Source of the DNA: Symbiodinium sp. CCMP2592 | Taxonomy: Eukaryota > Sar > Dinophyceae > Suessiales > Symbiodiniaceae | DNA length: 64,000 nt | Reading direction: 5' to 3' | NCBI GenBank assembly: GCA_905221615.1 | Contig: CAJNDT010006192.1 | Coordinates: 120,001-184,000 of the forward strand | In this document: piece by piece, positions 26,340 through 63,663 of the stretch | How the letters are laid out: each line of letters starts with the position of its first letter | Numbering within the stretch: the first letter of the stretch is position 1 | The notes under the pieces: model-generated | Told to the model about the DNA's origin: nothing | The model's input: the letters and a program-made list of their open reading frames with translations, nothing else | Databases searched by the model: none | Translations under genes and position numbers: made by a program

Positions 26340-26453
26340 TATGGGAGTTTCCGAAAATAGGGGAATAGGGGATCCTAATATTGTACCCCAAATACTAGGA
26401 TCCTTATTATAAGGACCCAAAATAAGGTACCCCTAACTTTCGGAATTTCCCAT
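26340..26453. mobile_element. hairpin element, family A copy 1
   Basis: Arms TATGGGAGTTTCCGAAA and TTTCGGAATTTCCCATA with a CCTTATTATAAGG centre. Related arms recur at 44668-44781 and, disrupted, at 50784-51125. Confidence 0.65.
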
Positions 26454-26492
26454 AGAGTAGTACAACCAGAATGAGAACCCTAAGGAGTCATG

Positions 26493-26587
26493 TAGGAACC
26501 TGATTAAGCAACCTTTGGCCTCCTAAAATAGTAGGATTCATATAAGAGACCCTTATAAAGGCCCAAGGTTTCTTAATCAGGTTCCTA
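26493..26587. mobile_element. hairpin element, family B copy 1
   Basis: TA, then GGAACCTGATTAAG, inner sequence, then CTTAATCAGGTTCC, TA. Arms are shared with 35629-35730 and 40732-40831; all three copies are bordered by TA on both sides. Confidence 0.75.
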
Positions 26588-28102
26588 GATTAACATTGGT
26601 AGTTATTCAGGTTTCGAGGTTAGAGCTTCTAGCTCGGTGTGTTGCAGGACCCAGCATAGCAACTGCACAGTGAAGAAGGTAGGTCGGGTCTCAGGTTCAT
26701 TCTTCCGTAACTAGACTAGGAACCCTGATTCAGGCTTCTGTATTAGCATCTTCAAGAAACCCTCTTTCCAAGTGGCAACAGCTCCGAGACAGTCTCTGAC
26801 AACCGTCTGGCTCTTAGTAGGATGGATCCCTGTAGTAGTCCCTACAATAGTCCCTGTAACTTGTAACCCATTCCCCCCGCCCCTACTAAGAACCAGACAA
26901 ACAAGCGGTAAATGAGTTCAGAAAGGACGGGGCTGTCTGCCGCCACGTCGTCATGCATTTGCAGACGGAGCTCCGCTGTTTCAGCCGAAAGCAAAGCTCA
27001 CACTCTGGGGCTCCTTTAGATTTGGAATAGGGCTTTTGGGATGTTTTCGGTGCACTGTCGTAAAACTTCAATTTTGGTTGGGAGCCCTGTGGAATACTGC
27101 AGAGAGTTGTTCAGGCTTCTATGCGGATGGCGCAGATAGGGTGGCGACCAGCTCGGAATTGCGTGTGCAAACGCTCGAACTCTCCTATGGATGGGCCGAG
27201 GCGATGGCAAGTCCGGACTGAATAGATGTAATGTAAGGGCCTTATCATTTAAGGGTTATGGGGGTTCCGTAATATTAGTAGAATATATCCCAAACTGAAT
27301 TCTAATTGTAAGGGGCACTAATTACATTACATTATGCCATCATGTGCTTGAAACAGTGCTGGAGGCCATTCAGAATTTCATCCGTCCAGCCTTCCGGATT
27401 CCAAGTTTTGAACACGTGGTGCGCGAATGATTCGGGGTTCGTCAATCGTAGGGACCCGCAGCGGGGTAGGGGGAGGTGGGTAGGGGACTATGCTTCCTTA
27501 GATAGGCCTTATTAAGTCGTTATTCTACGTATGAAGGCCCCCTGGTCCCTCGCCCCTACCCGCCTAGGGGTCCTTATGAGTCAAGTGAAGTAGTTGGTAT
27601 GTTTCCACAGAATAAGGCTAAGGCATAACGTTCTGGGGGCATGTTATGCTTTGCTTGTCCAGGGACCGTAGGGGGATACTATCTTCGTATTCGCCCACCA
27701 CCTTGTTCAAAAAAGTTGATAAGCAGCATGAGTATACTGTAAGCATCTAGGAAAATGGCCGTCGATCCCACTGGGCCTGTCCCAAAAAACATCTCAACCA
27801 ACTCGTGCTACAAACTTTCTCGTGCAGACGCCGGCGGCCAGCTACAAGCCCTGTGGATGTTGAGCTCTGGCCACATCCTGATCTTTGCTCAACTGCGGCT
27901 CGTGGAAACCGGACGATTAGTCTGAAGACTTTTGAGCTCGTATAACCCAAAGGGTCCAAGTACCATACTATACTATACTATTACTGGAGCAATTGGGTTT
28001 GACCAAGGCCATGGAACACAACAACACTACCATAAACCGCTCGCGCATGCAGCAAGTACACACGACACACACGACATGAAACGTCTTGCCGCGGCCGCGC
28101 TC

Positions 28103-28756
28103 CTAAAGGAAGAAGCTGAGCTTCCCGTCGGCGCTAAGCATTGCTGTGTAAGCTGGCTCGTGTCTCAAAATTTCACATTTCTCACTGCATTTCATGGTGG
28201 ACTCGTGGGGCGCCGTCTCACTCGGAAAAGGGAAAGCTGTCCACCTGGCGCCTGCGAGGCTCTCGAGGGCAAGAATTCCAGGCTCGCTTTGGGGAAGGCC
28301 CGTCCCAAGTGTCGACAATCCGGACGAAGTCTCTGCCTGTACCCTCGGTGCCTTGAAAGTGCCCTCATCGTCTGCCATGGCATGGTCGTGAAACTGAGAA
28401 TGACAAGCCCCGCCCGGCCATGGCTGTGGCGATTCTGCAGGCACGAAGTTCTGCTTCTGAATATGTCTTGGCCTTCTGCTGCTCCTAAACGGCTCAAGGC
28501 AGAGCGGAGTTCTTTTGCCAAAGCCGGGCAGAAACTGGCCGTGGATGTTGTCGATGATCTTCTGCGCTCCGAACCTGTTGGGTGTGCGGATGACAGCGAA
28601 ACCGCGCGACTTGCCATTCGGAAACAGCTGCATCTCAATCTCGCAGTGGGTCAAACCACGTGAATGGAGGAAGTTGTGCAGGACTTCCGCATCACACTTC
28701 GCAGGGATGTTGCGCAAGAAGAAGGCACCCTCCGGATCCTGCGCCTGTGCCGTCAT
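28103..28756 (-). CDS. RRM-domain RNA-binding protein
   Basis: 217 residues from ATG 28754-28756 to TAG 28103-28105; the open frame continues upstream without a better ATG. The N-terminal ~90 residues form an RNA recognition motif: RNP2 FFLRNIP at ~12-18 and RNP1 KSRGFAVI at ~49-56, followed by a helix with INNIHG-like IIDNIHGQFLPG. The C-terminal ~120 residues have no recognised domain. Alone in an otherwise repeat-rich stretch; no intron is needed. RRM proteins bind RNA in splicing, stability or translation; the target is unknown. The overlapping plus-strand frame is a shadow. Confidence 0.7.
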   Translation of the reverse strand: MTAQAQDPEGAFFLRNIPAKCDAEVLHNFLHSRGLTHCEIEMQLFPNGKSRGFAVIRTPNRFGAQKIIDNIHGQFLPGFGKRTPLCLEPFRSSRRPRHIQKQNFVPAESPQPWPGGACHSQFHDHAMADDEGTFKAPRVQAETSSGLSTLGTGLPQSEPGILALESLAGARWTAFPFPSETAPHESTMKCSEKCEILRHEPAYTAMLSADGKLSFFL

Positions 28757-28869
28757 GGGTAGAGCAACGATCTCACGTGTCCGGCCACAGAATTTTGTTA
28801 AATGTCTTGCCGAAGTCAACGGCAGAGCTCTGAGCCCAGATGATTGGGTGTGCGAAGACTTTCCGTGCT

Positions 28870-29334
28870 AAAACAAAGACTGATCCGTCAACGGCCCTAA
28901 ACCCTACAGCCAACAACGGCTCCACTTAGGGGGGGCACCATCAGGGCTCCTTCAAAGGTGCTATAGGGGTTCCGTTAGAAGAATACTACAAGGGGTCCTT
29001 TCAAGGCCCCAAACCCCCTGAAGGTGGTAAGGTCTTCCATGCCATCTTAAAGCTGCAACCTTGTTATCTTGTAGTCAACATGACTGAGGAGGCTCGGGGT
29101 TCGTAGAGACTTAGAAGTCTACACCACGCATACGCTTACACACATAAGTCATGCACCAAGGACATCATATCGTAGTTATTAAGTCATGCACACATTTAAA
29201 TTTGCCCCTCTGCGTACTCGAAGGTATGCCTTGCTGTGATACATTGCCGTGCCGACTCTCGTATACTATCTCATGCTAAATTCCATGTCGACGGCCTTTG
29301 CGCAATATCTGCAACCCCAGTGCATAAGCCTTAA
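28870..29334. other. no gene seen
   Basis: Short imperfect inverted repeat at about 28925-29035 and ordinary sequence; nothing else supportable. Confidence 0.3.
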
Positions 29335-29560
29335 TCAAACCCTAAACCGCTAGACCTCTAAACCTCTAAACCCCTAAACCCTAAAACCCTGAACCCTAGA
29401 CCCCTAAACCCAAGCCCCTAAACCCCTAAACCCTAAGCCCTAAACCCTAAACCCCTGAATCCTAGACCCCTAAACCCCTAAACCCTAAGCCCTAAACCCT
29501 AAACCCCTGAATCCTAGACCCCTAAACCCCTGAGCCCCTAAACCCCTAAACCACAAGCCT
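29335..29560 (-). repeat. CCCTAAA (telomere-like) array
   Basis: Loose CCCTAAACCCCTAAACC units, with a ~75-bp sub-block repeated (GAATCCTAGACCCCTAAACC at about 29456 and 29510). Confidence 0.8.
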
Positions 29561-29749
29561 AGAGAACTCTGCCAGGCGAGGCGCTCGGTGATGTACTGCT
29601 CAATGGCGGTGTGACCATCTTCCTGGCCTCTGTTAGTTTGCATAGGGTTTAGGGTTTTAGGGTTTAGGGTTTAAGGTTTTTCTGAAATAGGTCCGTCCTT
29701 TAACCAGTAACAAACGATACTTGAAGCAACGTCGTTCAAGGGTCTATTT

Positions 29750-30127
29750 TCAAGGTTTAGGCACGACAGTCAATCCCCTAGCTACTAGCCACAAGATCTG
29801 TACCAGATAATGACAGGATAGCTCTTTAAGTCTTTGGGGTGGGCTCCATTTTTGGGATTCAAACTCCGGCCTGTAGCACTTAGTTTCAAGAAAGGGACAT
29901 GAAGTAGCTGCCAGTTTAGCCTCCCTATGACAACCTTGCATATCAGCTATTCCGGCCGCTCCGATAGCTGTACCCAGAGGCCCCAAAGTAGTTCCTTTTT
30001 GGGGTTCATATATAGAATCCTATAAGGTAATCCCAAAAGGAACTACTTTGGGGCCCCTGGGTATGCTACTCCTGACAGAGGACCGGTGTACTGCTGCCCA
30101 AGGAGCTGCGGGTCACCTTGAAGTCAC
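29750..30127 (-). CDS. two candidate exons around a hairpin intron
   Basis: Exon 30077-30127 follows CTGCCGCAG| and reads DFKVTRSSLGSSTPVL; the next, from 29967, reads IGAAGIADMQGCHREAKLAA, then SCPFLETKCYRPEFESQKW. A GT-AG intron (29968-30076) joins them in phase (1 + 2) and consists almost entirely of the hairpin. The protein is unknown. The 3' end is not fixed; the frame closes at 29750. Confidence 0.45.
29968..30076 (-). mobile_element. hairpin intron (introner candidate)
   Basis: Arms GGCCCCAAAGTAGTTCC and GGAACTACTTTGGGGCC make an almost perfect ~94-bp palindrome. On the minus strand it begins GTCAGGAGTAG and ends GGGTACAG, giving GT-AG borders. Confidence 0.6.
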
Positions 30128-30724
30128 CTGCGGCAGCGGTAGGATTTCTGCACTGCTCTCGCAATCCGAGTACAGAGGCTGCAACTGGCAATTGTCACGA
30201 CAACACTGGCTCAGACCCTAAAAAACACTATCAAGCGTTCGCAGTTGAAAGCCCCCTTGCTTATATGAGAGCAGCTACGAAAAGCTTATTCTCAAAGAAT
30301 CTGAACCCATTGCCTTCTGAAGCAAGTCTCTACGGCAGCTCACGGTAATGCTGGTCCACGCCCTACACGCATTCAATCCAAAGCCGAAGCAGCGATTGGA
30401 ATATCTCAAAGCAAGCGATCCGAACAAAAGCGTAGCAGTAGGTCTTAATAATCACTGCTGCACTAAGCGTCCCAACTCCCCAATTCCATGCACTCCTGAA
30501 CCCCTAAATTGAAAGCTCGAAACACCACGCTTGACAATCAGCATAGCCCAGTACATTCAAGTACTCGACTCGCATGTGAAGGCACTCAGTTTTCAATGCA
30601 TTACCCTGATACTGAAAACCACGGTAGTTCGTCAAACCCTGCACTATCCCAAACGGTCCTAGGTTGTCCTAGGTTCTGACTGTGATGGGGGATACTTTCC
30701 CAAATCATAGTAATGATTCCTAAT

Positions 30725-30832
30725 ATATGGGTGGTTGTCAAAATTATTCTCCCTTTTTGGGTACCCTAAATATTAGGTGCCGTACGATAAAAATAGGGAC
30801 ACAAAAAGGGACCATGATTTTGACAACCACCC

Positions 30833-30836
<4 letters not shown>
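30725..30836. mobile_element. hairpin element, family E copy 1
   Basis: Arms ATGGGTGGTTGTCAAAAT and ATTTTGACAACCACCCAT, with CCCTTTTTGGG/ CAAAAAGGG inside. Second copy at 53968-54076. Confidence 0.7.
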
Positions 30837-30879
<43 letters not shown>

Positions 30880-32014
30880 GATAGGAACCCAACATTCTAC
30901 TGCACAGGCACTTAGGATCCTTTGAGTATCCGGGGATCCATAAACAGACAGCCACGCATAGACACTAAAACATGCCGTAAATCACTCAACCCTAAACCCG
31001 AAATCGGGTAACCGGAAGCTCTCAAACTGCTTTTAATCATATAATCACAAGCTACACCCCCAAAGCCCTAAGCGCTAACCCCAATGCCCTCACCCACCCC
31101 CAAGGCCCGTATGCAAATCCATGACGCCGTGTACATCAGTTCCAATTCTTAAGGCCTCTTTCTCGCGCAAAAGCCTAAACCCTCAAGCACCCTAAACCCT
31201 AAACCTAAAACCAGGCCGGTCCCGGCAGAACTGATCAGTCCCCCTGAACCGTAAACCCTAAACCCAGCCTTTTTTCCACAGGTCGCCGATCTCCTTCAAG
31301 GCTTTCTTCAAGGTCTCTAACTCCTTGGCATAGGGCTGTTGGGTCTTTAGGGTTTAGGGCTTAGGGTCTGAAATTCAAGGGTTGCCTCGTGTGATGCTTT
31401 TCGCTTGCACAGGGAAGTGTACTTCGAGGGCTTGTTGTGGCAGTTTGAATGTCTATGTACATAATTTGCGCCGATGTGACAATGCGAGCTCTGGTGAAAT
31501 GGAGGGTGAACAACTTCTGCAGTCTAGATGATCGTATTTCCACGAGTAAACTATCTTGGGGTGTACTAAGTTTGCAGTTTGGGGTGTCGGATTGAGGTGT
31601 ATGGGTCTATAGGCGAGTTTCAGCACTTGAGGGCCTTGAGGCTGATAAGCATCTGCATCGTTCACAGATGCTGAAAATCTTCAGCCAGAAGCAACGAAGG
31701 TGAGCCTCCTCCACACACCATGCAAGATTTCAGGCGTGGGATTGCAATTGCGACGATCTTGGGATTTTGGGATTTAGGGTTCGCGATTTAGGGTCTAGGG
31801 TTTAGTGTTGGGCTTTTAGAGTGGATTTTAGGGTTTAGGAAGAACTCCAAACTGTATAGTATAGGAATGCATAGGAGATACTACGTATACTTACGATGTA
31901 GGAAGAGGCACCAAGTACGGTTTCGAGTTCCCCCGTAACGGTTTTGAATGCGATAAAAAGGAGGCCCTGGCAAGGAGCCTCTATTGCGGGCGATGAAAGA
32001 AATGTATGTATACA

Positions 32015-32048
<34 letters not shown>

Positions 32049-32576
32049 CATATCTATATATATATACATAACTATAAGTATAAATATACATATAAATATA
32101 AATACGAATATGAATATAAGTATAAACATAAATACGAATATAAATATAAGTATAAATATGGATATGAATATATAATATGTATATATATATACAATAAATA
32201 TATACATATGTATATATATATATATATATATACATACATATATTGTAACCCCCCCAAGAACTACCGACCCTCGTTTTGTATAGCAAGAACCGTGTCAAAC
32301 CAGCTTTTCCGGAAGGTCAAGACCCTGTATCAGTCAAAGACTACCGAAATCAAACTCACATTTCAAGAGACTGTGTCCGTCAACTAATTCAGGTTCGATG
32401 TGAGCACGCTGTCAACGGCAACACGGTGCTATTCCACATTGGTTCGACGTGAGCACGCACTCAACAGCAACACTGTGCTCTTCCAATACAAAGCCAACTG
32501 TCTCTGGGTAAAACAAAAAAAGAAGAAAAACATCTTTGAGGAGACTATGCGGCCAAACTCTGAAAACTTTTTTGGG

Positions 32577-32765
32577 TTTTCCCCAGGAAAAAGATAGTTT
32601 CCGAGTGGAAAACCAAGTATGACAAAAAAAAATTGCACCGGAAAACCAGATGATGTGTTTGTTTTTTGGGTTTCCTTAGGAAAAATTGGTTTTGCGGTCC
32701 CAAACTATTTCTTCCCTAGGAAATGGTTGGTTTTCCACTCGAAAACCATCTTTTTCCCAGGAAAA
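32577..32765. repeat. long inverted repeat (38-bp arms)
   Basis: Arms 32577-32615 and 32728-32765, with cores TTTCCGAGTGGAAAACCA and TGGTTTTCCACTCGAAAA; a 112-bp loop lies between. Longer loop than the other hairpins. Confidence 0.6.
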
Positions 32766-34140
32766 CTTCGTATTTCACTGCGAGACCAAGATTTTCGTAG
32801 CAAAAGGTGTGTATTTGATTTATTGTTTGTGCGCGTTGCAAGTTGGTGTTGCCAATAAGGTTCCAGTGTCATCACTATTGTGATTCGATCCCGCTTAGCG
32901 TGCGCACTATACACTAGGTTGGGTAATGACCAAGACAGTATTCGGATCAGTGTTGGGGTCAATAGATAGGTAGTATTGCAAGTTTAACGCAGACTATAAC
33001 CCTGGATTTCAGGGTTCACACAGCTACCGATTTCTTCCAGCTGACTATGGTTGCAAATTCAAAAGCACATTGGGGTCAGATTCTGGGTGGTACAAAGGTT
33101 ACTATAGATGACCTTGGGCTGTACGGTCACCATTAACATAGCTGCGAATGACAAGGATAGTGTTGGGGTTGCTGTTGTTTGGAATCAGGGGTCAGTTAAC
33201 GATCCTGGTCATTATGTTGGTATCTAGTACACGTTTAACCTTAGAGTTAGTATGTGTGTACACATAAATGTCCATACACGCTTACGAGCAAGTCCGGCAG
33301 CAAGTCCGACATGATCATATAGTACATAGAAGGGTGTGCTATATACAATATACATGTTGATGTAAACAAACAAATGAATTTATGATGGCACAGAATCTAA
33401 AGGCAATCGGGCAACACCAGAGTGAAGACAGCGAGGATCGCGGTTTTAGTGGAGTTCGATTGTGTAGCTGAATAGTAGGAGGAATGCGACGTCTACCGTT
33501 GAAATAAATGTTCCTGCAATATTTAGCTTACTTCTCTATGAATAGAACAGGAACTCGTACTGGGGATGCCATGACTTTAAACTTCGGGGCTAGAATGCTC
33601 ATGCCAGGGATACCGCAACTACATCGGGATTGATGAACCTGTTGGTGAAGCCAATGAATGGTCTGGGTTTCTCCTAAGATGGGTTGCTGTTGAGGGAAGT
33701 ATCCGGTACAGTACGGAGGCTACCCATGCGAACAGCTTATGGATGGTCTTTAAACTATCGGGGGGGCCAATCAGGCTGATGTATATTATTGTATTAACCT
33801 GCAGGTCGATCTGGGTATTAATATGGGGATGTATAATGGGGTTACTAGTCGGCGCAGCATTTTATTCCATACGAACTAAGACGTCGATCTGTAAGGCATC
33901 TTTTTTGTGTGAACGTGAAAAGAGTACTACTGTCACCATTGGGGCCAATGTAAAGGTTAATTATTGGGATACTGTTGTTTAAGAGTAGGAGTCAATCAAG
34001 GCTTACGCTCATTCATACCTATTGCTGGGGCTTTGATCTGAGACGAGAGGGAGTTAATACTCGGGCCCATATTGATCTTCGGGTTGCTGGCAGTATCGCG
34101 CGGCACCTCGCGGTAGTTCTTCGGGGGGTGGTTAGCTAGC

Positions 34141-34191
<51 letters not shown>

Positions 34192-35428: not shown

Positions 35429-35998
35429 TCAGCCATAAGCATTGAAATCATAGGCTGTCACAGTGGCTGCTGCAACCACCATATTGAGGGATTCTTCAGA
35501 CGACCCTGCCAACCCTGAAGGATCTTTCAAGCTATGGCTAACCGCCTTTTGAAACAGGTGTGACTTGTCGCTTTGGTATTCTGCAAGGGCCTGCTCTGCA
35601 TCAAGCCATTCGGAATTATATCTTAACGTAGGAACCTGATTAAGAAACCCTGGTCCTGGAACCCCCAAATAGTAGGATTCATATAAGGAGCCTCGTAATG
35701 AAGACCCAGGCTTTCTTCATCAGGTTCCTACATTACTGACGCAAGACTTGGGGAGATGGCCTGGTGCCATGGACTTGGGTAGGCCAAGACTGTAGTGCGG
35801 AACACATTTGCCCACATGGTGGGGATGAGGGAGTTCGAAGTTGAGTACAACATACCAGGGGGGGAATGGGCCGCTTTTTAACGTCATCGAACCACACAAG
35901 AACTGGGTGTCAGGCCCGCCCAAACTGGTGGCTGCAATGATTCTACAGCCTCTGATGAACTCCTTGCTGATTGCAATACACCCTTTCTAGCTGTAGAA
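35429..35998 (-). CDS. two candidate exons around a family-B hairpin intron
   Basis: The upstream exon (35732 to about 35998, after AAAG|GG or TAG|AAA) reads CIAISKEFIRGCRIIAATSL, then GGPDTQFLCGSMTLKSGPF, WYVVLNFELPHPHHVGKC and PKSCVSN. The downstream exon (35635 to 35429) reads VPTLRYNSEWLDAEQALA, then SHLFQKAVSHSLKD. Removing 35636-35731 (GT-AG) joins them in phase 0 exactly. A further likely exon upstream at about 36045-36165 reads SSVICDGPESSVMFDEDER. The protein family is not recognised. Confidence 0.6.
35629..35730 (-). mobile_element. hairpin intron, family B copy 2
   Basis: The inverted arms GGAACCTGATTAAGAAA and TTTCTTCATCAGGTTCC are bordered by TA. On the minus strand the donor GT is formed at the outer end of one arm, and the acceptor AATCAG|G lies inside the other arm, so its last bases (GTTCC) stay in the message. 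Confidence 0.7.
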
Positions 35999-36689: not shown

Positions 36690-36729
<40 letters not shown>

Positions 36730-40380: not shown

Positions 40381-40577
40381 ATGTGGGTAGTTCTCTAAGT
40401 TAGGGCTCCTTTCAAGGTTCTTGTAAGGGTACCGTACTATTTATTCTGGGGACCTAAAACAGGGACCCGAATATTGAGAACTTCCCTCATGGTACCCTTA
40501 TATGATCCCTGTAGAAACCCTTCTAGATCTCTTTCAGACACCCTAAACGGGACCCCAATTTGGAGAACTACCCACAT
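40381..40577. mobile_element. hairpin element, family F
   Basis: Outer arms ATGTGGGTAGTTCTC and GAGAACTACCCACAT about 197 bp apart, longer than most hairpins in this part. Confidence 0.6.
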
Positions 40578-40731
40578 GATTGTTGGGTATGGTTAGCCCC
40601 GAACCCGGTCTCGTATACCCCAACCTAATTCCTAAGTCGCCCCTCGCCTAAACAGTTCGCCTTGCACCTTAGGCCTACGGAAATACATCGCAAACTCATC
40701 GTAGTTCTGGTTTAGAGTTCAGGGTGTCACG

Positions 40732-40831
40732 TAGGAACCTGATTAAGAAACCCTGGGTCTTGATTCGGGTTCTTTATATGAATCCTACTATTTCGGTGCT
40801 ATAGGGCCAGGATTTCTTAATAAGGTTCCTA
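40732..40831. mobile_element. hairpin element, family B copy 3
   Basis: TA, GGAACCTGATTAAGAAA, centre, TTTCTTAATAAGGTTCC, TA. Same arms and same TA borders as copies 1 and 2, with the inner sequence in the opposite sense. Confidence 0.75.
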
Positions 40832-41236
40832 CGTTAGGGTTTGGGGTTCAGGATTTGAGATGGAACGGGTTGAAAACTGATAGAAGGCTCTGGGGGTTGG
40901 TGCAGGATTTCCTTGACCAAATGTGCATAAATCTCAATAAACCGTGCGGAGCCCTGAGAAGTCTGAAAGCCTGAGCTGTTCGCTTCAGACATGCAAGGTC
41001 GCTCCTGTGGATGTCTTATGTCTTAGGTTCCATGACATGTTGCCATGCCCTTGCGCCAATGTCGCTTCCCGCTTCCGCTTCGGTTATCGAAGTCGGGCCT
41101 TCCTGATCTGTTGGGGTTGGGATCTAGAATAAGATTTTGAGGCACATTATACTATAAATGTCATCAGCAACCCCCAAAAAATTAGTATTGGTAATGATTT
41201 AGTCCCCCATAGTACTGACATCTGACGCCTTCCTAC

Positions 41237-41810: not shown

Positions 41811-41916
41811 ATGTAGGGGCCTTAGTAAGTAGAATAGGTTGTTGGGGGTTCCTTATTATATATATATAGTACAGTATAGCCCCAAAACCTATTCTAATTA
41901 TTAAGGCCCTTACATT
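41811..41916. mobile_element. hairpin element, family C copy 2
   Basis: Arms ATGTAGGGGCCTTAGTAA and TTATTAAGGCCCTTACAT with inner AGAATAGGTT / AACCTATTCT and a TATATA centre. A decayed relative lies at 27225-27340. Confidence 0.7.
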
Positions 41917-42866: not shown

Positions 42867-42955
42867 CCTTAACCCTGAAGAGCCTGCCTTTTTAGGGTTC
42901 CCTGTTATGTTTTCCTTATATAGGTCCTTAAAAACGTAGGTTCTTCAGGGTTAGG
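42867..42955. mobile_element. hairpin element, family G copy 1
   Basis: Arms AACCCTGAAGAGCCTGCC and GTAGGTTCTTCAGGGTT. Family copies at 58881-58975 and 60089-60180. Confidence 0.75.
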
Positions 42956-43084
42956 GGTCAACCCTAAACTCAAAACCCTAAACCGTTCCCACGTTTCCTG
43001 ATCCCTGAAACCTAAAGCCAAAGCACTGCAAGGCCTAGCCCCTGAGTCTCGAAACCTCTTACCCTGACCACCCCCCAGGTGGAC

Positions 43085-44667: not shown

Positions 44668-44781
44668 AGATTTGGGAGTTTCCGAAAATTGGGGTACCTT
44701 ATTTTGGGGGTCCTTATAGTAAGGAGCCTACCATTTAGGGTACTATATTAGGAACCCTTATTTTCAGAAACTCCATTTGGG
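44668..44781. mobile_element. hairpin element, family A copy 2
   Basis: Arms TGGGAGTTTCCGAAAAT and ATTTTCAGAAACTCCA, centre GGTCCTTATAGTAAGGAGCC. Confidence 0.65.
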
Positions 44782-44909: not shown

Positions 44910-45017
44910 GTACGGTTGATGATATAAATCCTGCATTACCTTAAGGACCCTAAACTATGGAAATTGTGGGTATATTCCTTATAATGGGTAATGCAGGATT
45001 TATATCATCAGCCGTAC
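44910..45017. mobile_element. hairpin element, family H copy 2
   Basis: Arms GTACGGTTGATGATATAAAT and its near-perfect inverse ending CATCAGCCGTAC, extended by CCTGCATTACC / GGTAATGCAGG. Contains GT at one tip and CAG near the other. Confidence 0.8.
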
Positions 45018-45253: not shown

Positions 45254-45337
45254 CCAGAAAGTTGGAATATCTTTATCGTAACCCCTTTAAGGTAAATTAT
45301 AGGGATCCTACCATTAATCCATATTCCAACTTTCTGG
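45254..45337. mobile_element. hairpin element, family I copy 1
   Basis: Arms CCAGAAAGTTGGAATAT and ATATTCCAACTTTCTGG. Nearly identical to 50919-51002 over the whole length, indicating recent movement. Flanking minus-strand islands (QQPTLRVSPMQPSTP and IQVPLVQNSTPNKPL) suggest it sits in an intron. Confidence 0.75.
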
Positions 45338-49025: not shown

Positions 49026-50450
49026 CTGCCAAACTCAGACAGGTTTGGGGCAGTTCTTTCGGTGCGAAGTGGGCTTTCAGGCTTAGTTCGGGGGTCTCTG
49101 ATTCGGGTGTCTGCTTTGGCTTTAAACAAATGTCGGATTCAATGCTCAGGGGGTTAAGGGTTTCGAGGCATCACACCCATCTATTTTTGCAGGTTTCAGA
49201 GCTCCGGTTGCCAGGCTGGCCGTAATAGAGGGGTCTGCGTCACCAGACTACGGTGTCAGGGTATTCTACCGAAGAAAATTTCGCTAAGATAGCCCTACGG
49301 AGCAGTATTGGTAACTGTTCAGGCCCCCTTGATACCCTAAACCCTGGCCCCTAAACCCTAAACCCTAAACCCAGATTGACATATCAATCGAGCATACGTC
49401 TGGCTCGGACACGGACTGCAGGGGCCGAACGGGCCTAGCAGTGCCGGTGCCAGGTCTGGGGTGGCAAGAATTAGCGCATCAGGGTTTACTTGGGGTTTAG
49501 GGTCCATGTATTCATATAGTATATACATTGGCCTTAATGTAGTCCCTATATAGGTACTTTGGGGCTCATATATCTCTATATATGGGCACATGGACCCTTA
49601 GGGTTAGGGTTTAGGGTCCATGACCACCAAGGCATGCAGTTTAGGCTTTAGGGTCTTCCGATGCAGCATTGCAGACACCCGTGGCATGCGAGATGTCCGG
49701 GAACGAGTCTCTGTCATTCTCTCTTCTCATAGCATCTGCATCAGGTTGGCCCAACCAAAAAATGATGCGTCTCGACCTTTCCCAGATTCCTAGATCATTC
49801 TTTAACCGAAACCTAAACACCAGGCTTCTGGGGTTTAGGGCTCTTCGCACGAAGCAATGCGGAGTTGTCATGGCTCGGGCGCAGTAGCGAGAGATCAGCT
49901 ACTGAGCTGTTTTTCCCTTTCGACTCAAATTGAACGGTAACAAGGACAGACATAGATTGTCAACACACATGACATGCTCCAAAACCCCCAAAGCCCTATA
50001 AAGCACATGCCTCCAAGAAACAACCCTCTGAGAACCCCCTCGCAAACCGACCCTAAAAAGCGCCCAAACATTGCTAAAACAACGAGGGCCCTTCATGACC
50101 GCCGCCGCAAAACCACTGCAAAACTTCTCCCAAAACCCTCTGAAGCCAGAGACCCTCAATCCAAGCTTATTAAAATTCCCCCCCCAAAGTCATGCCATGA
50201 CAATCTGGGGGGGGGGGGGGGGAAAGGAACCCTTACAAGCAACCTTCAAGGAATCCTTTTTAGGGGCACTGTACCGTTCAACTATGAATCCCTCTCTGGT
50301 ATACGGGCCTTCTACTATTTCAGGGTTCATCTCGTCCTTCGGGCAAAAGGAGTCCCTTACCTTGAATTATAGTAGGACAAGTATTCCGGCTTAATGTAAA
50401 CTTTCCTGTAGTTAAGGCGAGGTGGATGACCATGATATAATAGGATCCCT
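49026..50450. other. non-coding, one hairpin
   Basis: Dispersed CCCTAAA, C8 and G14-type homopolymers near 50178 and 50208, and a hairpin at 49499-49599 (AGGGTCCATGT / ACATGGACCCT). No exon supported. Confidence 0.4.
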
Positions 50451-50576: not shown

Positions 50577-50622
<46 letters not shown>

Positions 50623-50783: not shown

Positions 50784-51125
50784 CACTGGGAGTTTCCGAA
50801 AGTTAGGGGGGGTTACCTTAGGGTTCCTTAAAACGGTTACCATAAGGGTTACTATAAGGGTTGCTATAAGGGCTACTATAAGAGTTGATATGGGAGTTTC
50901 CGAAAGTTACAGTAGAAGCCAGAAAGTTGGAATATCATTATCGTAACCCCTTTAAGGTAAATTATGGGGATCCTACCAGTAATCCATATTCCAACTTTCT
51001 GGAGTTCCCTGTAGGTGGTTACCTTAGGGTTCCTTAAAACGGTTACTACAAGGGTACTATAAGGGTTCCTTTAAAGGGATACTATAGGGGTTTGGAGTTT
51101 CCAAAAGTTAGGGGGTTACCCTATT
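50784..51125. mobile_element. nested hairpin elements (family A disrupted, family I copy 2 inside)
   Basis: The piece TTACCTTAGGGTTCCTTAAA occurs on both sides (about 50812 and 51019) of the family I copy at 50919-51002. GGGAGTTTCCGAAAGTTA occurs at 50787 and 50891, and an inverted-family end (GGAGTTTCCAAAAGTTA) at about 51093. This indicates insertion and local duplication. Confidence 0.6.
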
Positions 51126-51567: not shown

Positions 51568-51770
51568 CTGCAATCACGGAGGAGTTGGAACGCAGAACAA
51601 CCAAACTCAAGCTTAAATCCCTACACTCCAAGACAGACACGAAATGGCCGCAAAACCTTAGCCCCAGAACCCCGAACGCTTAACAACCTCACCCATGGGG
51701 CCTGAAACCCACAGAACCCTAGACTTCGAGTCTCGAGGCTTCCTGAGGCTTCCTGAGTATTAGGGATAGG

Positions 51771-51892
51771 GAGGCTTAGGGGGGTAGGGGGGAGGCGGGT
51801 AGGGGCTAGGCTTCCTTAAGTAGGCCTTATTATGGGTATTAAGGGCGCCTACCCCCCCCCCCCCTCCCCTTACCCCCCTAAGGGTACCTATG
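51771..51892. mobile_element. hairpin element, family D copy 2
   Basis: Arms CTTAGGGGGGTAGGGGGGA and CCCCTTACCCCCCTAAGG; related to 27461-27572 (GGTGGGTAGGGG, CTTCCTTAG.TAGGCCTTATTA shared). Confidence 0.6.
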
Positions 51893-53967: not shown

Positions 53968-54076
53968 CATGTGGGTGGTTGTCAAAACTGTGGTCCCTTT
54001 CTGGGTCCCTAATATAGTACGGCATTTAATATTTAGTGTACCCAAAAAGGCACCATAATTATGACAACCACCCATG
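53968..54076. mobile_element. hairpin element, family E copy 2
   Basis: Arms CATGTGGGTGGTTGTCA and TGACAACCACCCATGTG. Inner sequence related to copy 1 at 30725-30836. Confidence 0.75.
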
Positions 54077-54930: not shown

Positions 54931-54934
54931 CTGG

Positions 54935-55642: not shown

Positions 55643-56149
55643 CTATTCGTCCGCACAAGGCCTAAACCCTAAGCGCAAACCCCCAAAAATTCCCTTAGGG
55701 ATCCCGTTTACGGAACCCTTAGGGATCCCTTTAAAGGAACCCTTGCGTTCCCGAAAATACCAACATGCAATTTAACAACCAACTCGCACAACCCCGAACC
55801 CAAGACATGACCCCCCCCCCCCCCATCCTAGAGGGCTCAAAAGGTGGGATGTAGGCAGGTAGTTGATCCCGATAAGTGTCCTGCTAAAACAGGGCGACTT
55901 CATGCTCCCTCCCACCAGTTGAGGTTCTTGCAAGACCACTGTAAAGCCTAAACCCTAGAACCCTAAAGCCCTAGGCTCTAAACCCTGGACCCCTAAACTC
56001 TCGAAACCCTAAAAACCCAAAATGATGATATAGGGTCCTTAATAATTTAAAACAGGGTTTTGGGACCCCTTATACTATACTTATAGTAAGGAACAGCCAA
56101 AATAGTATAGGTACTTATGATAAAGGCCCCCCTATTAAACCCAAAACAC

Positions 56150-56232
56150 TGCGTCTTCCCCCACTGCTCTTCCGTTTCCTTGAACACGACGGGCCCAAGC
56201 AGCTCTTCGCGGAGACGTCGATTGAGCTCTAC
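56150..56232 (-). CDS. candidate exon beside a family-J hairpin
   Basis: After CCAAGTAG|G, where the hairpin arm ends. Reads VELNRRLREELLGPVVFKET then EEQWGKT before a GTGTTTTG donor. 27 codons plus two bases. Confidence 0.5.
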
Positions 56233-56237
56233 CTACT

Positions 56238-56354
56238 TGGAGGACCATGAGACTTAGAAAGCACATTTAAAAGTACCTCAAGTGTGGTTATAGGCAATTG
56301 TCAGTATAGCTACCCTAATAAGTAACCCCAGTAACTAAGTCCCATGATCCTTAA
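56238..56354. mobile_element. hairpin element, family J copy 1
   Basis: Arms GGAGGACCATGAGACTTAG and CTAAGTCCCATGATCCTT (imperfect). Lies between two coding-like islands, so probably intronic. Copy 2 at 62915-63037. Confidence 0.6.
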
Positions 56355-56355
56355 A

Positions 56356-56445
56356 GTAGTGGCGTCGGACTTTTCGAGGGCTCTGATCTCAAAGACAGGC
56401 AGAGGGTCTTTCAATCTGCAGAGGTTTTCGTCCGCAATCCAAACC
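56356..56445 (-). CDS. candidate exon
   Basis: After TGTTTAG|G. Reads VWIADENLCRLKDPLPVFEI, then RALEKSDATTL, running into the family-J hairpin. Donor not resolved. Confidence 0.45.
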
Positions 56446-57567
56446 CTAAACAAGGCTCAGGTTGAGGGGCTGTTCTATTTCTGGCAGTTCGGGCTCGGAG
56501 TTTTGGGAACAACGACTGCTTACTGCTGGCCGATTCCTCATTCGCGCCAGACCCCAGGAAGTGAAGCAGCAATCTTGCAATAGACCACAAGCCAAAATTC
56601 TCTGAGCACATCTTCTGAAACCCAAGACCCTACGGGTTTAGGGTTTAGAGGGCTCAATCCCACATCGACAGTCACTCAAGACGAAGGAAGGACTGGGATC
56701 CCCTGCAGACACCACTCGGTTATCCGGAAGGATGATAGGAACGCCTTTGTCGTCAGGGTCCTGTCCAGGCTGGTTTCCATGGGGCTTGACTTGGATGAGA
56801 GTTTCGAGACTAAGAAGAATAATCCGTAATAAGAAATAGATAACAATAACAATAATAATAACATGAGGCTTGAGGTTTGTGGTGTAACGGGGTTTGCAAG
56901 GCTGCAGAGCTTGGGTGTCTAAGGGCTTGAGGATTTTGTTCCAAACGTGTTTGTCCTTGGGCTGGGGGGTGAGAACACTTGCTTACTTTCGAGCCCCTCA
57001 TTCCTGACTCGACCCTTCCTGCAACCCGAAAACAATAAAATGTGAGACTGTGCAAAAGCTGAACAAACTCGAGCAAAAACCGGTCACGCAACATTGAGCC
57101 CCTGCGAAAGACCTAAAAACCCTATGACACCTTCGTAAAGACCTTAAACGCTAGCCCAACAAAGACCCTAAACAAGTAGACCCGAAACCTAACCCAAGAC
57201 CCTAAAATCAAACCCTAAACCTGCCAAGACCCCTAGCTATCCTCTGTCGTACCCTACATACCCACCGTTACAAGAACTAAGAGCTGCATGAACCTCAACC
57301 ACAAACCACCCAAACAAGAGACCACAACCCAAAAAACCCCAAAACAACGAATATAGGGCCCTACTAATTACCTATAGATACCATTTTGGGTGGCCTTCTA
57401 GTTATAGGACAAAAACCTAGACCTTAAACCCCTAAACCCTAAACCCTAAACCAATAAATAAACCCCCAAAATCCGACTTCACAGGAAACTGTGGACCCTA
57501 AACTTCCTAAACCCTAAACTCCTCAACCCAAAACACCGCCAAGCCGAAATCATGAGAAAATGTGGAC

Positions 57568-57632
57568 CTCGTCTCCACCGGGCTTCGACTTTAGCAGCGC
57601 ATCCGTATCGTCCACCCGGTCGGGACGCCGGA
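57568..57632 (-). CDS. candidate exon
   Basis: Between GTTACCAG| and GAG|GTCCAC. Reads RRPDRVDDTDALLKSKPGGD then E. 16 of 21 third positions G/C. Confidence 0.45.
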
Positions 57633-58179
57633 CTGGTAACGATTTAGGGTTTCGGGTTTAGGGTCAAGCCAATTCGGGTGGCTTAGGGTTGAGGGGTTCA
57701 GGGATTTAGGGTTTGGGGTTCAGGATGTACGGTTTGAAGGTTCAGGGCTCAAGCTGTGAAAGCTCGGGACTTATGGTTCAGGGTTTGGGGTGTTGGGGTT
57801 TAGGGCTTCGGGGCCCTGTAGAGCTGAATAAGGTGTCTCTCGTTGCTATAGGCCTGCTCGTGGTGGGAACTTACATCGGGAGGGGGTGTTCATGATGGTG
57901 CGCCATATATGTATTGCTACCACCACGATCAACACCATCCTCCCTCCTCCTCATCATCGTTGTCACCGTCATCAACATCATCGTCGTCATCACCATCGGA
58001 ATCTCCACAGTTTGTGTTGCTCATGAATCAAAACATACTACATAGATATGTACATATATCTATATATAGATGTAAAGACACATATATGTGTAGATGGCTG
58101 GCTAGCTAGCTAGATAGGCAGACAGATAGATAGATAAAGAGAGAGGCTATTCCTCTTTATCTACTCTACAATAGTCATG

Positions 58180-58517
58180 CATTCATTGATTCATTCATCC
58201 ATCCATCCATCCATCCATCCATGCATCCATCCGTGCGTGCCTGCCGGCCTGCATGCATTCAGTCACTCATTCCTGAGTTTCTCTACTTACGTTGCATGCA
58301 TCTATATATATATAGATATAGATATATATATATATATACATATGTGTGAATGCGTTATGTATGTATGTACGTACGTAGGGATGGATGGATGGATGGATGG
58401 ATGGATGGATGGACGGACGGACGGACGGACGGACGGATAGAGAGAGAGAGAGAGTCCTTGTGTGTATACATATACAGATATAGACATAGATGTACATATA
58501 GACATGCAGAACTACAA

Positions 58518-58561
<44 letters not shown>

Positions 58562-58570
58562 ACACATCTA
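58180..58570. repeat. cluster of ATCC, GATG/GACG, GA and TA microsatellites
   Basis: (ATCC)n at ~58195-58232, (GGAT)n then (GGAC)n at ~58378-58438, a short GA run, and (TA)n at ~58303-58340 and ~58523-58557. Open frames here are artefacts. Confidence 0.85.
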
Positions 58571-58880
58571 CATCTTGGATAGACAGATAGTGAATTAGTT
58601 AGGTAAAAAGATCGTCAGGCAAATAAACATGGATGGATTTGTCTACGAAGGATCAAGGGGATATTGTTTCTAGTTACAAGTCGACAACAAAAAACAAACC
58701 TCTACACACCCTCTTCCAGAGTTTGGGGTTGCATACGAAGGCCGGAATTTAAGCTTTGGAGGGCTTTTGTATTGACTATAAATAAACAAACACACTAAGG
58801 AACCCTGCCCCGATACTCAGCTCCGGTCAGGAACCCGAAAACCTAGTTCTTGGACCTATATAACCGTATTTCTTAGGCCT

Positions 58881-58975
58881 ACCTTAACCCTGAAGAACCT
58901 ACCTGTTTAAGGATTCTATAAGGAAATCATAATAGGGAGCCCTAAAAAGGTACATAGGCTCTTCAGGGTTAAGGT
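58881..58975. mobile_element. hairpin element, family G copy 2
   Basis: Arms ACCTTAACCCTGAAGA and CTCTTCAGGGTTAAGGT. A coding-like minus-strand island ends just to its right. Confidence 0.75.
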
Positions 58976-58997
58976 AAAATTTGGGGAGACCTGGAAC

Positions 58998-59092
58998 CAG
59001 AGGCGCCTTGCACGTTGCGCTTGGCTTCCTGAATGATGTCCTCCGGCGCTTGGATGCACCAATCGTCCTCTTGGAGGCGTTCGGGCCGAGGG
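58998..59092 (-). CDS. candidate exon
   Basis: Between AACGCAG| and |GTTCC. Reads PRPERLQEDDWCIQAPEDII, then QEAKRNVQGAS. With a GC donor in the next exon upstream the two join in phase. Strong codon bias. Confidence 0.5.
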
Positions 59093-59407
59093 CTGCGTTT
59101 TGTTGAGGGGTTTAGGGGTTTAGGGGGTTCAGGGGTTTAGGGTTTAGGGGTGTAGGACTTTAGGGGTTTAGGGTTTAGGGGTTCAGGGGTTTGCTTCGGG
59201 CGTCGGCATTTTTTAATTCTGGTTACCACACTCTTGTTTGCAGTTTCTTACATCCCCGAAACCTAGGCCAACTTCTAGGCACCAAGCATCCGATGTAACC
59301 CGAAGCTTCAGGTAAACTCTACAAAACTCGAAACCCTAAAGCTTACAAACACACCCCAAACCCTTTCATCCGAGAACGCAATTCCTGATTTCTCTTAAGC
59401 CCTGTAC

Positions 59408-59494
59408 ATGCAGGTCCTTGGAGGCGAACAAGTCCACGGACACGTCATCCTCGAAGGGGTTCCTGCTCGAGGCCGGATTCTTCGACACTAGGGC
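59408..59494 (-). CDS. candidate exon
   Basis: After GCTGTAG|G. Reads ALVSKNPASSRNPFEDDVSV, then DLFASKDL; donor either GCATGT or GTACAG. 24 of 28 third positions G/C; the plus-strand reading has no such bias. Confidence 0.5.
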
Positions 59495-59847
59495 CTACAG
59501 CAACTGCAAGAGGGATGGAACCTGATCGACCTGAATTTCTTTAGAAACCAACTAGACACGCTAGCAAGCAGTCAGGATTATTACTGTTGAGTCATCCTAT
59601 CTGCACTGAGCATCCTTGTGCAGCATGCACCACAAGGCATCACCTCACGTTTTGTTGCTTACTTCTCCCCGATCCAACATCAGCTTTGCTACGTAAACTG
59701 CTGCGAGGCACGGCACCTTTCTCGTTTTCAATCGGGTTTTTGGACATCCTGTTCTGACTGTTCTACAATTAGAAGAGGAAGTCTGAGGCAACACATTGCT
59801 GAGTATTCAGGCTTCGGGCTGCCGACGCAGTTCGATTTCTATACTGA

Positions 59848-59950
59848 ACTTAGAACCCTAGCAAAAATTATAATTGTAGCTGATTCTTAGGGATTATAAT
59901 AACCAAAAACTTAAAAGTATTTCTAAGTACCCCTAAGATTTTCCAATACA
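59848..59950. repeat. dispersed ~100-bp repeat, family K copy 1
   Basis: GAACCCTAGCAAAAATTA, then CTTAGGGATTATAATAACCAA, repeated at 60412-60512. No strong hairpin. Confidence 0.6.
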
Positions 59951-59960
59951 GGCAAGCTCA

Positions 59961-60392
59961 TCAGAACGAGAAAGTGGCGATGTTTGATGCACTTGTGATC
60001 GGTCGGCCCTCATGCTTCTCAACCGCAAACACAAAGAGACCCCTTCTTTGGTAGAAGCCGAAATTGCAGAAACAAGCCCTAAACCCTGCCTTAACCCTGA
60101 AGAGCCTACCCTTTTAGGGTTCCCTACTATAATTTCCTTATATAAATCCTTGAAAACGTAGGTTCTTCAGGGTTAAGGTGAACTTTACACCCCCACCCCT
60201 TTGGGAGTCACAGTTGCACTCCTCAGCCCTGGAAGGCTTTCGCAGATGCAACCGACAAATACCGAAAACAAGGGGTCCAGGGTTTAGGGTTTGGGGGCCT
60301 ACAGAATAAGACCGTGTCATTGAACTATCAGCAAGTCGGGATAGCCGGGGACAGCTGCCAGGGCTTCTATGCTCAGGCCTCACGGTTTCCAA
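59961..60392 (-). CDS. candidate exons around a family-G hairpin intron
   Basis: The upstream stretch (to 60184) reads HLRKPSRAEECNCDSQRGGG then VK; the downstream stretch (60096-59961) reads VKAGFRACFCNFGFYQRRGL, then FVFAVEKHEGRPITSASNIA and a TGA. Intron 60097-60183 (GT-AG, 87 bp) joins them in phase (2 + 1). A second frame is also open downstream, so the choice of frame is not certain. The 5' part (METVRPEHRS...) includes telomere-like sequence and may contain another intron. Confidence 0.45.
60089..60180 (-). mobile_element. hairpin intron, family G copy 3
   Basis: Arms CCTTAACCCTGAAGAGCC and GTTCTTCAGGGTTAAGG. Donor GT is at the outer end of one arm and acceptor CTTCAG|G lies inside the other, the same layout as in the family B intron. 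Confidence 0.65.
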
Positions 60393-60519
60393 AGTTCAAA
60401 CCCTCCAGCACCTAGAACCCTAGCAAAAATTAACATTTTAGCTCTTTCTTAGGGATTATAATAACCAACAATTTTAACACTATTTCGAAGTGCCCGTAAG
60501 AAGCTTCTAACTCTCCGAT

Positions 60520-62799
60520 ACCCATACACTAAACCCTAGACCAGACACCCCCCAGCTACTCTAGCTTCTCTCCAATCAACCCCATCTCACACCATCCCAG
60601 AAAAGAAACAAAGAAGGGACCCTTAATGGGGACCCCTACCCTATCATAAGCTATATAATTGTATTTTATAGCCTTGTTAAGGGTATATACCTAGGGGTCG
60701 CAAGCCGCACCAAAACTCGCCTTGCTGAAGCGGGCTGGGGCATGGCGGCCTCTGCGGCCTTCAAAGTTAGGGTTTAGTAGGTTTGGTAGGTTTAGTGGGT
60801 TTAGGGTGTTGGTGGTCCCCCACTGTTTGGCAGGTTTAGAGTTTAGTAGGTTTAGGGTGTTGGGGTTTAGGAAATGGGATTTGGGCATGAAGAACCACAT
60901 TAATCGGAACTGGGTTGAAGTTTTGGTGTAAGACTGATAGCAGGCAACACTAAGGAAGGACGTCATGATAGGGTTGCATCAGACTCATCACAATGCTATA
61001 GCGCTTACGGATTGTCACGAAGGGTTTCCTCTGAATTAAGGATACTACAGAATATTAAGCTCTTGATTCTGGGTGTGTACGAGGGCCCGATTAGAGAGTT
61101 TTCTTGTAGAGCTCCATAAGAGTGTTTTGAACAAGTGTTTGAACCAAATTCGGTGTGCCTGTTTTGGGGGCCACATGGCGTGAGGGTAGAGTTAAGGGGT
61201 GTGGGGCTAGGGGTTGGGATTCGGAGCTGTGGGGTTCCGGCTCAGGAACTCAGAAGATTCGGACATAGCCTGGTGCTTGGTTTGGGTTTCTCTGCTTAAG
61301 TTTTCAGGATGTCGGTCAGTCAAGGAATGGTTCCTTGAGGCTTGGGGCTTAGACCCCGCAAGCCACTTAAGTTTTGGTCCGTAGTGTTCACCCGTTTCGA
61401 TTTGCCCTGTTTAGTTGCACCGCAACACATAACAAACAACAGGAAAGTCATCCTTTGCCATAAGCCACCATACAGCCTCACAGAGGCTCTCATCTAGGTC
61501 GACGACCCTCCACATACCGCAAACCCGGATGCCCACGAACAATTCGAAACTGGCACAGACTGCAAAATTAAATTTGCAGCCTGAAGAATCCTACATAAAT
61601 CCATAAAGCAATTCAAGGCATGTACCTCGATCTGGCCCTTTATTTATGCCCGATTTTTGCAGGGTTTAGGATCCCGGACGCAGGAAGCAAAGCACCCTAA
61701 ATCGCCCTAAACCCTAACAAACCACTATAAGAAGCCTGGTTGCCAGCGCTCACTGGCTCAAGCCAGCTTAGGCTGTAGTTGGTTTAAGGTTTCGGGCGGG
61801 TTAGCCTTTCAGGTATGGTAGTCCCTTCTAGCAATATTAAACGGAGCGCCGGACCCCCTCGTGCAAATTAGGTGTTAACGGGCAGACATGATTTCCGGAG
61901 GATTGGCCCAAGGTGTGTCCATTTTTTGGGGGATGCTTGATAGTAGACGAGGGAAGCGATTAATTAACAAGGAATAGAGACCAAAAGAAAGCCCGAGGCT
62001 ATCAACTCAACAAGAAGACATTAAACTAGAAGAGCCTCGGCACCGCGGCGTGGCGACATCGACATCACCGGCGGCAGCGATACGTGAGGCTGAGCGACAG
62101 GCAGCCCATTTCCAGTTGACTCCAAAAGCCCTTAACTTGGTACCTTTATCAACCTGAAGCCTGTACCTCCAAAGAATGGCCGTACGAGTTGGCTCAGTGC
62201 ATTTGGGGGTGCTGTAAAGCCTCCTCTACTCCAGCTCAGAGCTCACATCTCTGCAAGTGCTACTTCCTGTGGCTTCAATCCCTGGTCCTAAAAACCAGCA
62301 CTCAAAGGCTCTGTGGATGCAATATGAGGCTTTAGTGCAGCATGAATCATGAATGAAGTCTTCGGATTCCCAGAGTGGCGGGGTTTCAGGGCTTCGTGTT
62401 GGCCACAAAGCGCCCCTGAGCTAAAACCCCGAAAACCTGAAAAGCTCTGAAACTCTGAAGCTTACAACCATCAAAGCCTGCAGTCCTAACCCCAAACCCT
62501 GAAGTCTCAAACGGGCCTCCTAAGCCACAACACACACTCCCCTAAAAAATACGATTCTGGAGCCCTACGAACATGCCCAAAGCGAACCCGAAACTCCTGA
62601 AGCACACCGTAACATGAAGAGCGTTTTGGAGCCCCCACGTTAACAACAGCTACAAGTTGGATATATGTAATAACCTTGCAGAATTAAGAGGTACCCTGCC
62701 TTCTTCTTCGGCATGTTTGCTTGGCCGTGCCTGATGAAGCAGCGAGTTTGAAGGCTTAGTAGCAGTCGCTGGAGGTGGTGAGGATTTCGAAGATTTCAG
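60520..62799. other. no gene supported
   Basis: Dispersed TTTAGGG and ordinary sequence. A GC-rich block at 62035-62110 is open on the minus strand (VAQPHVSLPPVMSMSPRRG) but without clear borders. Confidence 0.35.
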
Positions 62800-63210
62800 G
62801 TGAGAAGTTTTGGGCTTGAGATTCTGGGAGTCTTCTGGCTCTGCTGATCAGAGAACGTCCGAAAACCCGAACCCAAGCCCCAAACGCCCCGGACCGAAAT
62901 CTTCTGGAACCTTGCTTGGAGGTTCATGGGACTTAGTAAGTGCAGTTACAAGTACCTTAACTGGGGTTATGAGCAATTATAAGTGTAGTTACCTTACTTA
63001 TTTATAACCCCAATTGCGAAATCCCATGAACCTCCAAACCAAGTGTCGAACCCTTATCAGCAAAACACAACCGAGAGACACCCTTCATGAAGAGGTTTTG
63101 GAGTCTCTGGGAGTCCCTCACGAGAACCCCCCCACTGTCCTTGTGCAGGAGAGGCCCTGCCCAAAGCTGGCCGCCGAAGCCAGAAGGCTGAAAGAGCGGC
63201 ACTAAATGGC
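62800..63210. other. open islands on both strands around a family-J hairpin
   Basis: The 63041-63210 block is open on both strands (minus: VLVRDSQRLQNLFMKG; plus: CPKLAAEARRLKERH). The hairpin 62915-63037 (arms TTGGAGGTTCATGGGA / TCCCATGAACCTCCAA) separates it from a minus-strand island at ~62830-62905 (ISVRGVWGLGSGFRTF). Strand not decided. Confidence 0.35.
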
Positions 63211-63425
63211 TCGGAGCAAATTCGGGTTTGGGGTTTGAGGTTTGGCATTGCGGGTTTGGGGTTGAGGCTTTAGGGCTTAGGAGCTATTGTTTAGCCTCTC
63301 TAGTGGCTGAAACTCTCAGAACCATCAGCAAGGGAAGGCCTTGAAGCTGCAAACAACTTATCATGATGTATATGTATATGAGTCCTGAAGCTCGGACTTG
63401 GGCAGGGCAAACGTCAGCAGTTCTT

Positions 63426-63663
63426 CTAGATGTCAGAACAAGCGCAGTACAACTCCGGTGGAATGGCTTGCAAAATCCGCACTGGAAGCCCTGACCTCCC
63501 TGGGTTCTTGTTAAGGAGATTAACCTAAGTTGCCGTAACAAGGAAACCATACTATTTGCGATAGATCCCGATAACTTAGACGCTTTTCTGGTAACTTCCC
63601 TCAACAAGAACCCAGGACACTGTAAACCCCTATCGCCTCGCATGCTGGGAGGCCGAATTCGGG
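63426..63663 (-). CDS. two candidate exons around a hairpin intron
   Basis: Exon 63621-63663 (after CTTCTAG|) reads PEFGLPACEAIGVY; exon 63426-63499 reads RSGLPVRILQAIPPELYCAC then SDI and TAG. Removing 63500-63620 joins them in phase (1 + 2). Alternative frames are also open downstream. Confidence 0.4.
63500..63620 (-). mobile_element. hairpin intron (121 bp)
   Basis: Arms CCTGGGTTCTTGTT and AACAAGAACCCAGG. On the minus strand it starts GTGTCC and ends ACCCAG, with AG|G acceptor. Confidence 0.55.

Follow-up and report, generated by a model that had tools for sequence, protein, structure and literature searches.

The window analysed here, 64,000 nucleotides (nt) of DNA of Symbiodinium sp. 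CCMP2592 (contig CAJNDT010006192.1, positions 120,001 to 184,000), carries many imperfect palindromes of ~85–135 bp across a 38-kb stretch. The explanation that we put forward, with high confidence as a whole, is that these hairpins are families of palindromic miniature inverted-repeat transposable elements (MITEs), and that one of them, family M, is able to form introns. The genome searched for their copies comprises 1.098 Gb in 5383 contigs, in which the window is C5330:120001-184000.

The intron-forming ability of family M is indicated by a 108-nt copy situated between two open exons on contig C3890 (loci L137 and L127; region 1485600-1487000). The junction reads ...GTGTACTT/GTTC-element-CCCAG/GTTCACATT..., with the codons GTG TAC TT/GTTC plus element/GTTC ACA TTC: the donor GT comes from the duplication and the acceptor AG from the element end. 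All three frames through the element meet a stop within 80 nt, and when the element and one GTTC are removed, the frame is open for 396 nt before and 816 nt after the junction. A genome search with the spliced protein found a paralogue, C5147:3150-4334, that covers residues 1–391 uninterrupted in one open frame with 77% identity, and its DNA can be aligned with that of C3890 across the junction for 131 nt without a gap. Residue 122 is also covered in one stretch without a stop in 12 further rows among the 31 of this search. It is because of this paralogue, and not because of the length of the open sides, that an intron is proposed at C3890. As judged from the sequences, C3890 and C5147 represent the filled and the empty site in one gene family, where the insertion appears to have made an intron-like insert, which is predicted to be spliced. 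In this one coding gene, an M copy thus coincides exactly with a putative intron, and the frame is restored when the copy is taken out; M probably can make introns as the published introners of Symbiodinium microadriaticum do. For the second exon, the one match, to PAS, was weak and below the cut-off. Another paralogue, C742, has a gap of 121 nt, which turned out not to be an M element.

Family M reads CTGGGTTCTTGTT...AACAAGAACCCAG and has the ends CTGGG...CCCAG, giving a CAG end on either strand. For M, as for families H, A, and C, the first-look candidates in the genome were counted and the best 40 were scored; M provided 197 candidates. Among the 10 M copies with both ends recognised, 8 are flanked by 4-bp duplications (TATC, TATA, GAAC, GATT, TTTA, CTTC, AGTC, and GTTC); six of these were fetched on purpose and two were met in other loci. 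The count of 10 excludes the matches with only one recognised end, namely, those in L058 and L118, one near window position 1290, and a truncated M-like second copy located after exon 2 of the C3890 gene (L127:875). Seven measured copies span 112–121 nt, the duplication included. M is therefore a multi-copy element with defined ends, as introners are. In six of the eight duplications, one strand begins with GT, GC, or GA, compared with the 34% expected if all bases were equally frequent (p = 0.02); without the in-gene copy, the numbers are five of seven (p = 0.05). Of four M copies with long flanks, one, that of C3890, lies inside a gene.

The palindromes of the window are real and non-random. 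Excluding simple repeats, and with a score of at least 26 and a span of at most 220, 24 palindromes were counted in the chunks from 28 kb on (28–64 kb) and 6 more in the 24–28 kb chunk, while only 1, 2, 1, 2, and 2 were counted when the chunks from 24 kb on were block-shuffled five times. The palindrome population claimed in a preliminary description of this DNA is thus borne out, and so is the coexistence of several arm families: at least eight (A, B, C, D, E, H, I, and M) have copies elsewhere in the genome. That description had also called the arm families unrelated, which holds only in part, as 15 of 105 pairs of representatives scored above all 60 shuffles (~2 expected). Two of the 15 related pairs are copies of one family (D/D2 and G/G2); in the remaining ones, a core is common to A and D, to B, D, and L, or to L and M. 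Core words found despite the different arms are TAGGATYC (A and D) and ACC.TACTATTT (L and M).

The elements of families A, C, and H are palindromic MITEs flanked by a duplication of 2 bp, TA (or TG), for which C provides the strongest proof. The flanking dinucleotides of C are concordant in 32 of 43 copies (20 TA, 10 TG, 1 AC, and 1 AA), while 5000 shuffles gave a mean of 17.5 and a maximum of 27. Furthermore, 14 C copies are flanked left and right by CCCTAAA-like sequence, which provides a natural empty-site test: the heptamer register resumes after removing 2 bp in 13 of them and 3 bp in one. Since the register is kept by the 2-bp removal, a 2-bp target duplication is shown. Degenerate CCCTAAA/TTTAGGG heptamers are strewn through non-coding DNA in window 26000-64000 and in the other loci, and family C is frequently inserted inside them. 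For H, the dinucleotides are identical on both sides in 30 of 33 copies (29 TA/TA and one TG/TG); for A, TA occurs on both sides in 23 of 35; and for E, they are identical in 4 of 4. Shuffling of the sides, however, reaches the observed concordance in 9% (H), 78% (A), and 100% (E) of the trials. With concordance so near the shuffled level, a TA duplication fits these three families but is inseparable from a fixed TA end; locus-specific concordance is seen for C only. The A, C, E, and H palindromes are ~90–112 bp long, have terminal inverted repeats, and have no coding capacity. By their TA duplication, they fit the MITEs of the Tc1/mariner type, with which A, E, and H are consistent in this respect, whereas the TG/TG flanks of 10 of the 43 C copies depart from strict TA. 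Families B, D, and I look similar to these four and were not counted.

These families are abundant in the genome. The first-look candidates numbered 1037 for H (the best 40 scored at 94–100%), 1475 for A, and 949 for C. In the H and A loci, the borders of the copies are the palindrome borders, and the flanks are unrelated. The loci fetched with H and A copies (55 of 58; 164 kb) contained 80 further copies of the window families, against 0 in the reversed-sequence control, a density that is probably biased upward, as the 55 loci were selected for holding a copy. The window families are rarer at ten loci of the dinoflagellate spliced leader (DinoSL; 1 copy in 30 kb) than at ten arbitrary 3-kb places (7 copies in 30 kb), which speaks against introners, although the numbers are small. 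Extrapolation from the 7 copies gives ~2.6 × 10^5 copies genome-wide, which is a rough figure, resting on a small number and on places on contigs already met. The 21-nt spliced leader itself has 429 exact copies in the genome (reversed control, 0), and at several spliced-leader loci (L010, L012, L013, and L014, among L009–L018) repeated partial leaders were seen, like recycled mRNA insertions.

The explanation proposed is as follows. The hairpins are DNA transposons, non-autonomous and palindromic over almost their whole length, whose several families spread with target duplication, presumably through a transposase. Family C inserts at TA or TG and duplicates these 2 bp, and H, A, and E, whose ends are of a like kind, may do the same; copies of these families are found for the most part in non-coding DNA with abundant CCCTAAA-like repeats and decay there independently of one another. 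Family M inserts with a 4-bp duplication, its palindrome ending in CAG on both strands. When the duplication starts with GT, GC, or GA, it could supply the 5′ splice site and the element the 3′ splice site; splicing out the element together with one target copy would then restore the old coding sequence. As M is palindromic, either orientation could work. A more far-reaching version, which we offer as speculation and consider rather doubtful, is that the families form one superfamily with shared core words (A–D, B–D–L, and L–M) diversified by changes of the ends, and that the acquisition of CTGGG...CCCAG ends and a 4-bp duplication turned a MITE into an orientation-independent introner, whose preferred targets would supply the donor in advance.

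The preliminary description had instead regarded the hairpins generally as introners, each palindrome being a spliced intron, and had pointed to four loci at which the removal of a GT-AG intron joins open frames in phase: an H copy (29971..30063), an A copy (35624..35735), a C copy (60087..60180), and the window copy of M (63500..63615). The joins were reproduced at the first three loci (118+215, 255+204, and 212+133 open nt) but not at the fourth, where the most balanced frame is 71+64 nt. These three joins and the introner structure of M are what speaks for such a general reading. However, joins of this size are not clearly above chance. When any GT and AG up to 15 nt from the respective end were allowed, at least 100 open nt on both sides were obtained for 11 of the 23 window palindromes compared with 34% of 1500 control segments, a modest excess that is not clearly significant, and at least 118 nt for 6 of the 23 compared with 23%. 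The genome copies of H and A were likewise not found to lie between coding segments: joins of at least 100 nt on both sides at the empty sites were reached in 8 of 58 copies (4 of 28 for H, one of the 28 being a duplicate locus, and 4 of 30 for A), against ~25% of control positions. In addition, the four loci require four different splice geometries. The donor and acceptor proposed for the first three are displaced from the element borders by −13/−3, +4/+12, and −3/+10 nt, respectively; at the fourth (−5/0), the acceptor coincides with the element end, the only one of the four to do so, while the donor does not. Moreover, the ends of these three families (GGGTA, CATTA, and AAGGTR) are of the TA or TG type, without a terminal AG. 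The joined products of the second and third loci have no relative in a protein collection that contains Symbiodinium proteins, and those of the first and fourth gave no match in Pfam, which alone was searched for them. Because the borders miss the element ends, a terminal AG is lacking, the joins are at chance level, and two products have no homologue, A, C, and H are not introners. That all the families are introners is therefore extremely improbable; for the three cited loci the notion is abandoned, and it survives in kind for M through the C3890 copy. When 150 of the 246 filtered open reading frames (ORFs) around H and A were scanned with Pfam, SR-25 and ubiquitin were the only matches; the scan had no power and was not used, the positive control being equally empty (one implausible match among 26 of the 201 ORFs of the DinoSL loci). 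TCP1 genes taken as an intron sample comprised three full-length genes, each in a single frame, one gene in four pieces, and one fragment, and no hairpin was found by eye in the intron stretches of the four-piece gene.

Two other readings were weighed against that of palindromic MITEs with an intron-forming member. The strong hairpins and the near-perfect palindromic consensus (almost perfect in H, and palindromic also in A) would suit structured non-coding RNA genes or small-RNA precursors, in which the hairpin is under selection. But the number of broken pairs in the H and A copies (53 and 63) is close to that after shuffling (52.3 and 63.5): the changes in one arm are not compensated in the other, as would be expected of copies decaying neutrally after insertion, and nothing points to selection on the hairpin. 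With 0 Rfam matches at gathering scores in 26–64 kb, and with many near-identical copies carrying target duplications, this reading is highly unlikely. The other one, that M is only a MITE and that what surrounds its C3890 copy is a pseudogene or a misassembly and not a spliced gene, draws on the truncated M-like copy and the transposase gene just downstream. It is at odds with the exact duplication giving GT and the element giving AG, and with two exons that are both open and aligned to the paralogue without an indel; we consider it unlikely. Several observations do weigh against the explanation preferred here, in which the hairpins are MITEs and M can form introns. The sole intron-like M copy was met in a locus that had been retrieved because of a transposase, and its 396-nt open side alone is not rare, 400 nt being reached at 3.9% of 3160 control positions. 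The two M copies without a matching duplication are that of L056 and that of the window, whose flanks are CTCC/GACA and whose right arm has diverged. With its end at 63615, the latter gives joins of at most 111+150 nt (plus strand) and 72+213 nt (minus strand), and no convincing spliced frame was found for the long-flanked M copies of L005, L056, and the window (best, 226+137 nt on the minus strand of L005). Three B copies in other loci do not have TA or TG on both sides. Lastly, the one end that was read of an element with a DDE_3 transposase (L128, about 2190) is unlike the ends of the hairpin families.

The other palindromes of the window, all annotated without a strand, are located as follows. 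Family H, at the first cited locus (CCCAGAGGCC...GGCCCCTGGG between two TAs), was characterised by its copies, ends, and consensus; family A, at the second (ACGTAGGAACC...GGTTCCTACAT between two TAs), by its copies and ends; and family C, at the third (TG at both flanks), by the duplication and register tests. Further A copies occur at 26488..26592 and 40729..40834, and further C copies at 58880..58976 (TA at both flanks) and 42867..42956, the latter within CCCTAAA-type repeats and being the sole register exception among the 14. Family B is found at 30726..30835 (TGGGTGGTTGTC...GACAACCACCCA between two TAs) and 53970..54076 (TG at both flanks), family D at 26340..26454 (TGGGAGTTTCCG...GGAATTTCCCA between two TAs) and 44675..44774 (D2), and family E at 50908..51013 (TA at both flanks) and 45254..45337 (a core palindrome). 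Family I occupies 44911..45016 (CGGTTGATGAT...ATCATCAGCCG between two TAs), and family G 41811..41915, with a related copy at 27232-27335. Palindromes J (49499..49598), K (62909..63044), F (51766..51891; a similar one was recognised by eye at 27446-27579), and L (40381..40577; with sequence in common with B and M) were also found. The window copy of M is a MITE of the introner type.

Transposases of the Tc3/IS630 type are encoded in the genome, including one with an open frame. They were read in loci L127–L130 (contigs C3890, C558, and C2846): L128 carries HTH_Tnp_Tc3_2 and DDE_3, and L127 carries DDE_3. The frames are near-identical at C558, and the copies on C2846 are spaced ~3.56 kb apart. 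The copy in L130 stands beside an ORF with weak, below cut-off matches to DnaJ and the geminivirus Rep catalytic domain, and is possibly a composite mobile element. The DDE_3 element end gave no meaningful match to the window and the other loci, and an autonomous partner with the ends of the hairpin families was not found in this comparison of a single DDE_3 element end. The window itself encodes, on the minus strand, a 1174-aa ORF with a PLD-like domain near the C-terminus (171-3695); a frame (5796-9374) with a below cut-off reverse transcriptase match and a tRNA 2′-phosphotransferase (Tpt1/KptA) domain; a C-5 cytosine DNA methyltransferase ORF (14223-15905); and an RRM-like ORF (28103-28819), below the Pfam cut-off, with relatives of up to 63% in Symbiodinium and of 81% in an ENA sequence.

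Introners are one of the leading explanations of how introns are gained in bursts, and dinoflagellates are rich in them. The occurrence in one genome of an introner-type family beside closely similar hairpins that do not make introns allows one to ask which features distinguish the two; on the present evidence, these would be the terminal CAG and the 4-bp duplication rather than the hairpin. A matched pair of a filled and an empty site within one gene family is also provided. Full-length transcripts (IsoSeq) and RNA-seq are stated to be published for S. tridacnidorum CCMP2592 (PMC8045281).

As an introner-type family, M is of a known kind; the 2-bp palindromes, for their part, are MITEs whose duplication agrees with the Tc1/mariner type. 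Stowaway-type and Tc1/mariner MITEs are short, non-autonomous, and hairpin-forming, with a TA duplication. The 2-bp families of the window share with them the shortness, the TA duplication, and the hairpin; they differ in the TG/TG flanks of C noted above and in a consensus that is palindromic almost throughout. The introners of S. microadriaticum have, as described by Gozashti et al. (2022, PMC9860276), 4-bp duplications, terminal inverted repeats, a carried 3′ splice site, and a 5′ splice site derived from the duplication, and an example given there spans 115 nt. Likened by this description, M has the same architecture of duplication, inverted repeats, and splice sites and a similar length (112–121 nt versus 115 nt); it is unlike it in being palindromic almost from end to end and in carrying CAG on either strand. 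The introner elements of Amoebophrya have inverted repeats of 8–20 nt, direct repeats of 3–5 nt, and many non-canonical borders (PMC7789003). Both systems combine inverted repeats with short direct repeats at introns, whereas the arms are longer here and the predicted border of M at C3890 is GT-AG. In Suessiales, inverted-repeat elements have been reported in introns, in 3.2–6.3% of the genes of Symbiodiniaceae (PMC10522408; PMC11114475). These counts concern introns, and in the portions of those reports consulted a non-genic TA/TG population such as that of the window is not described.

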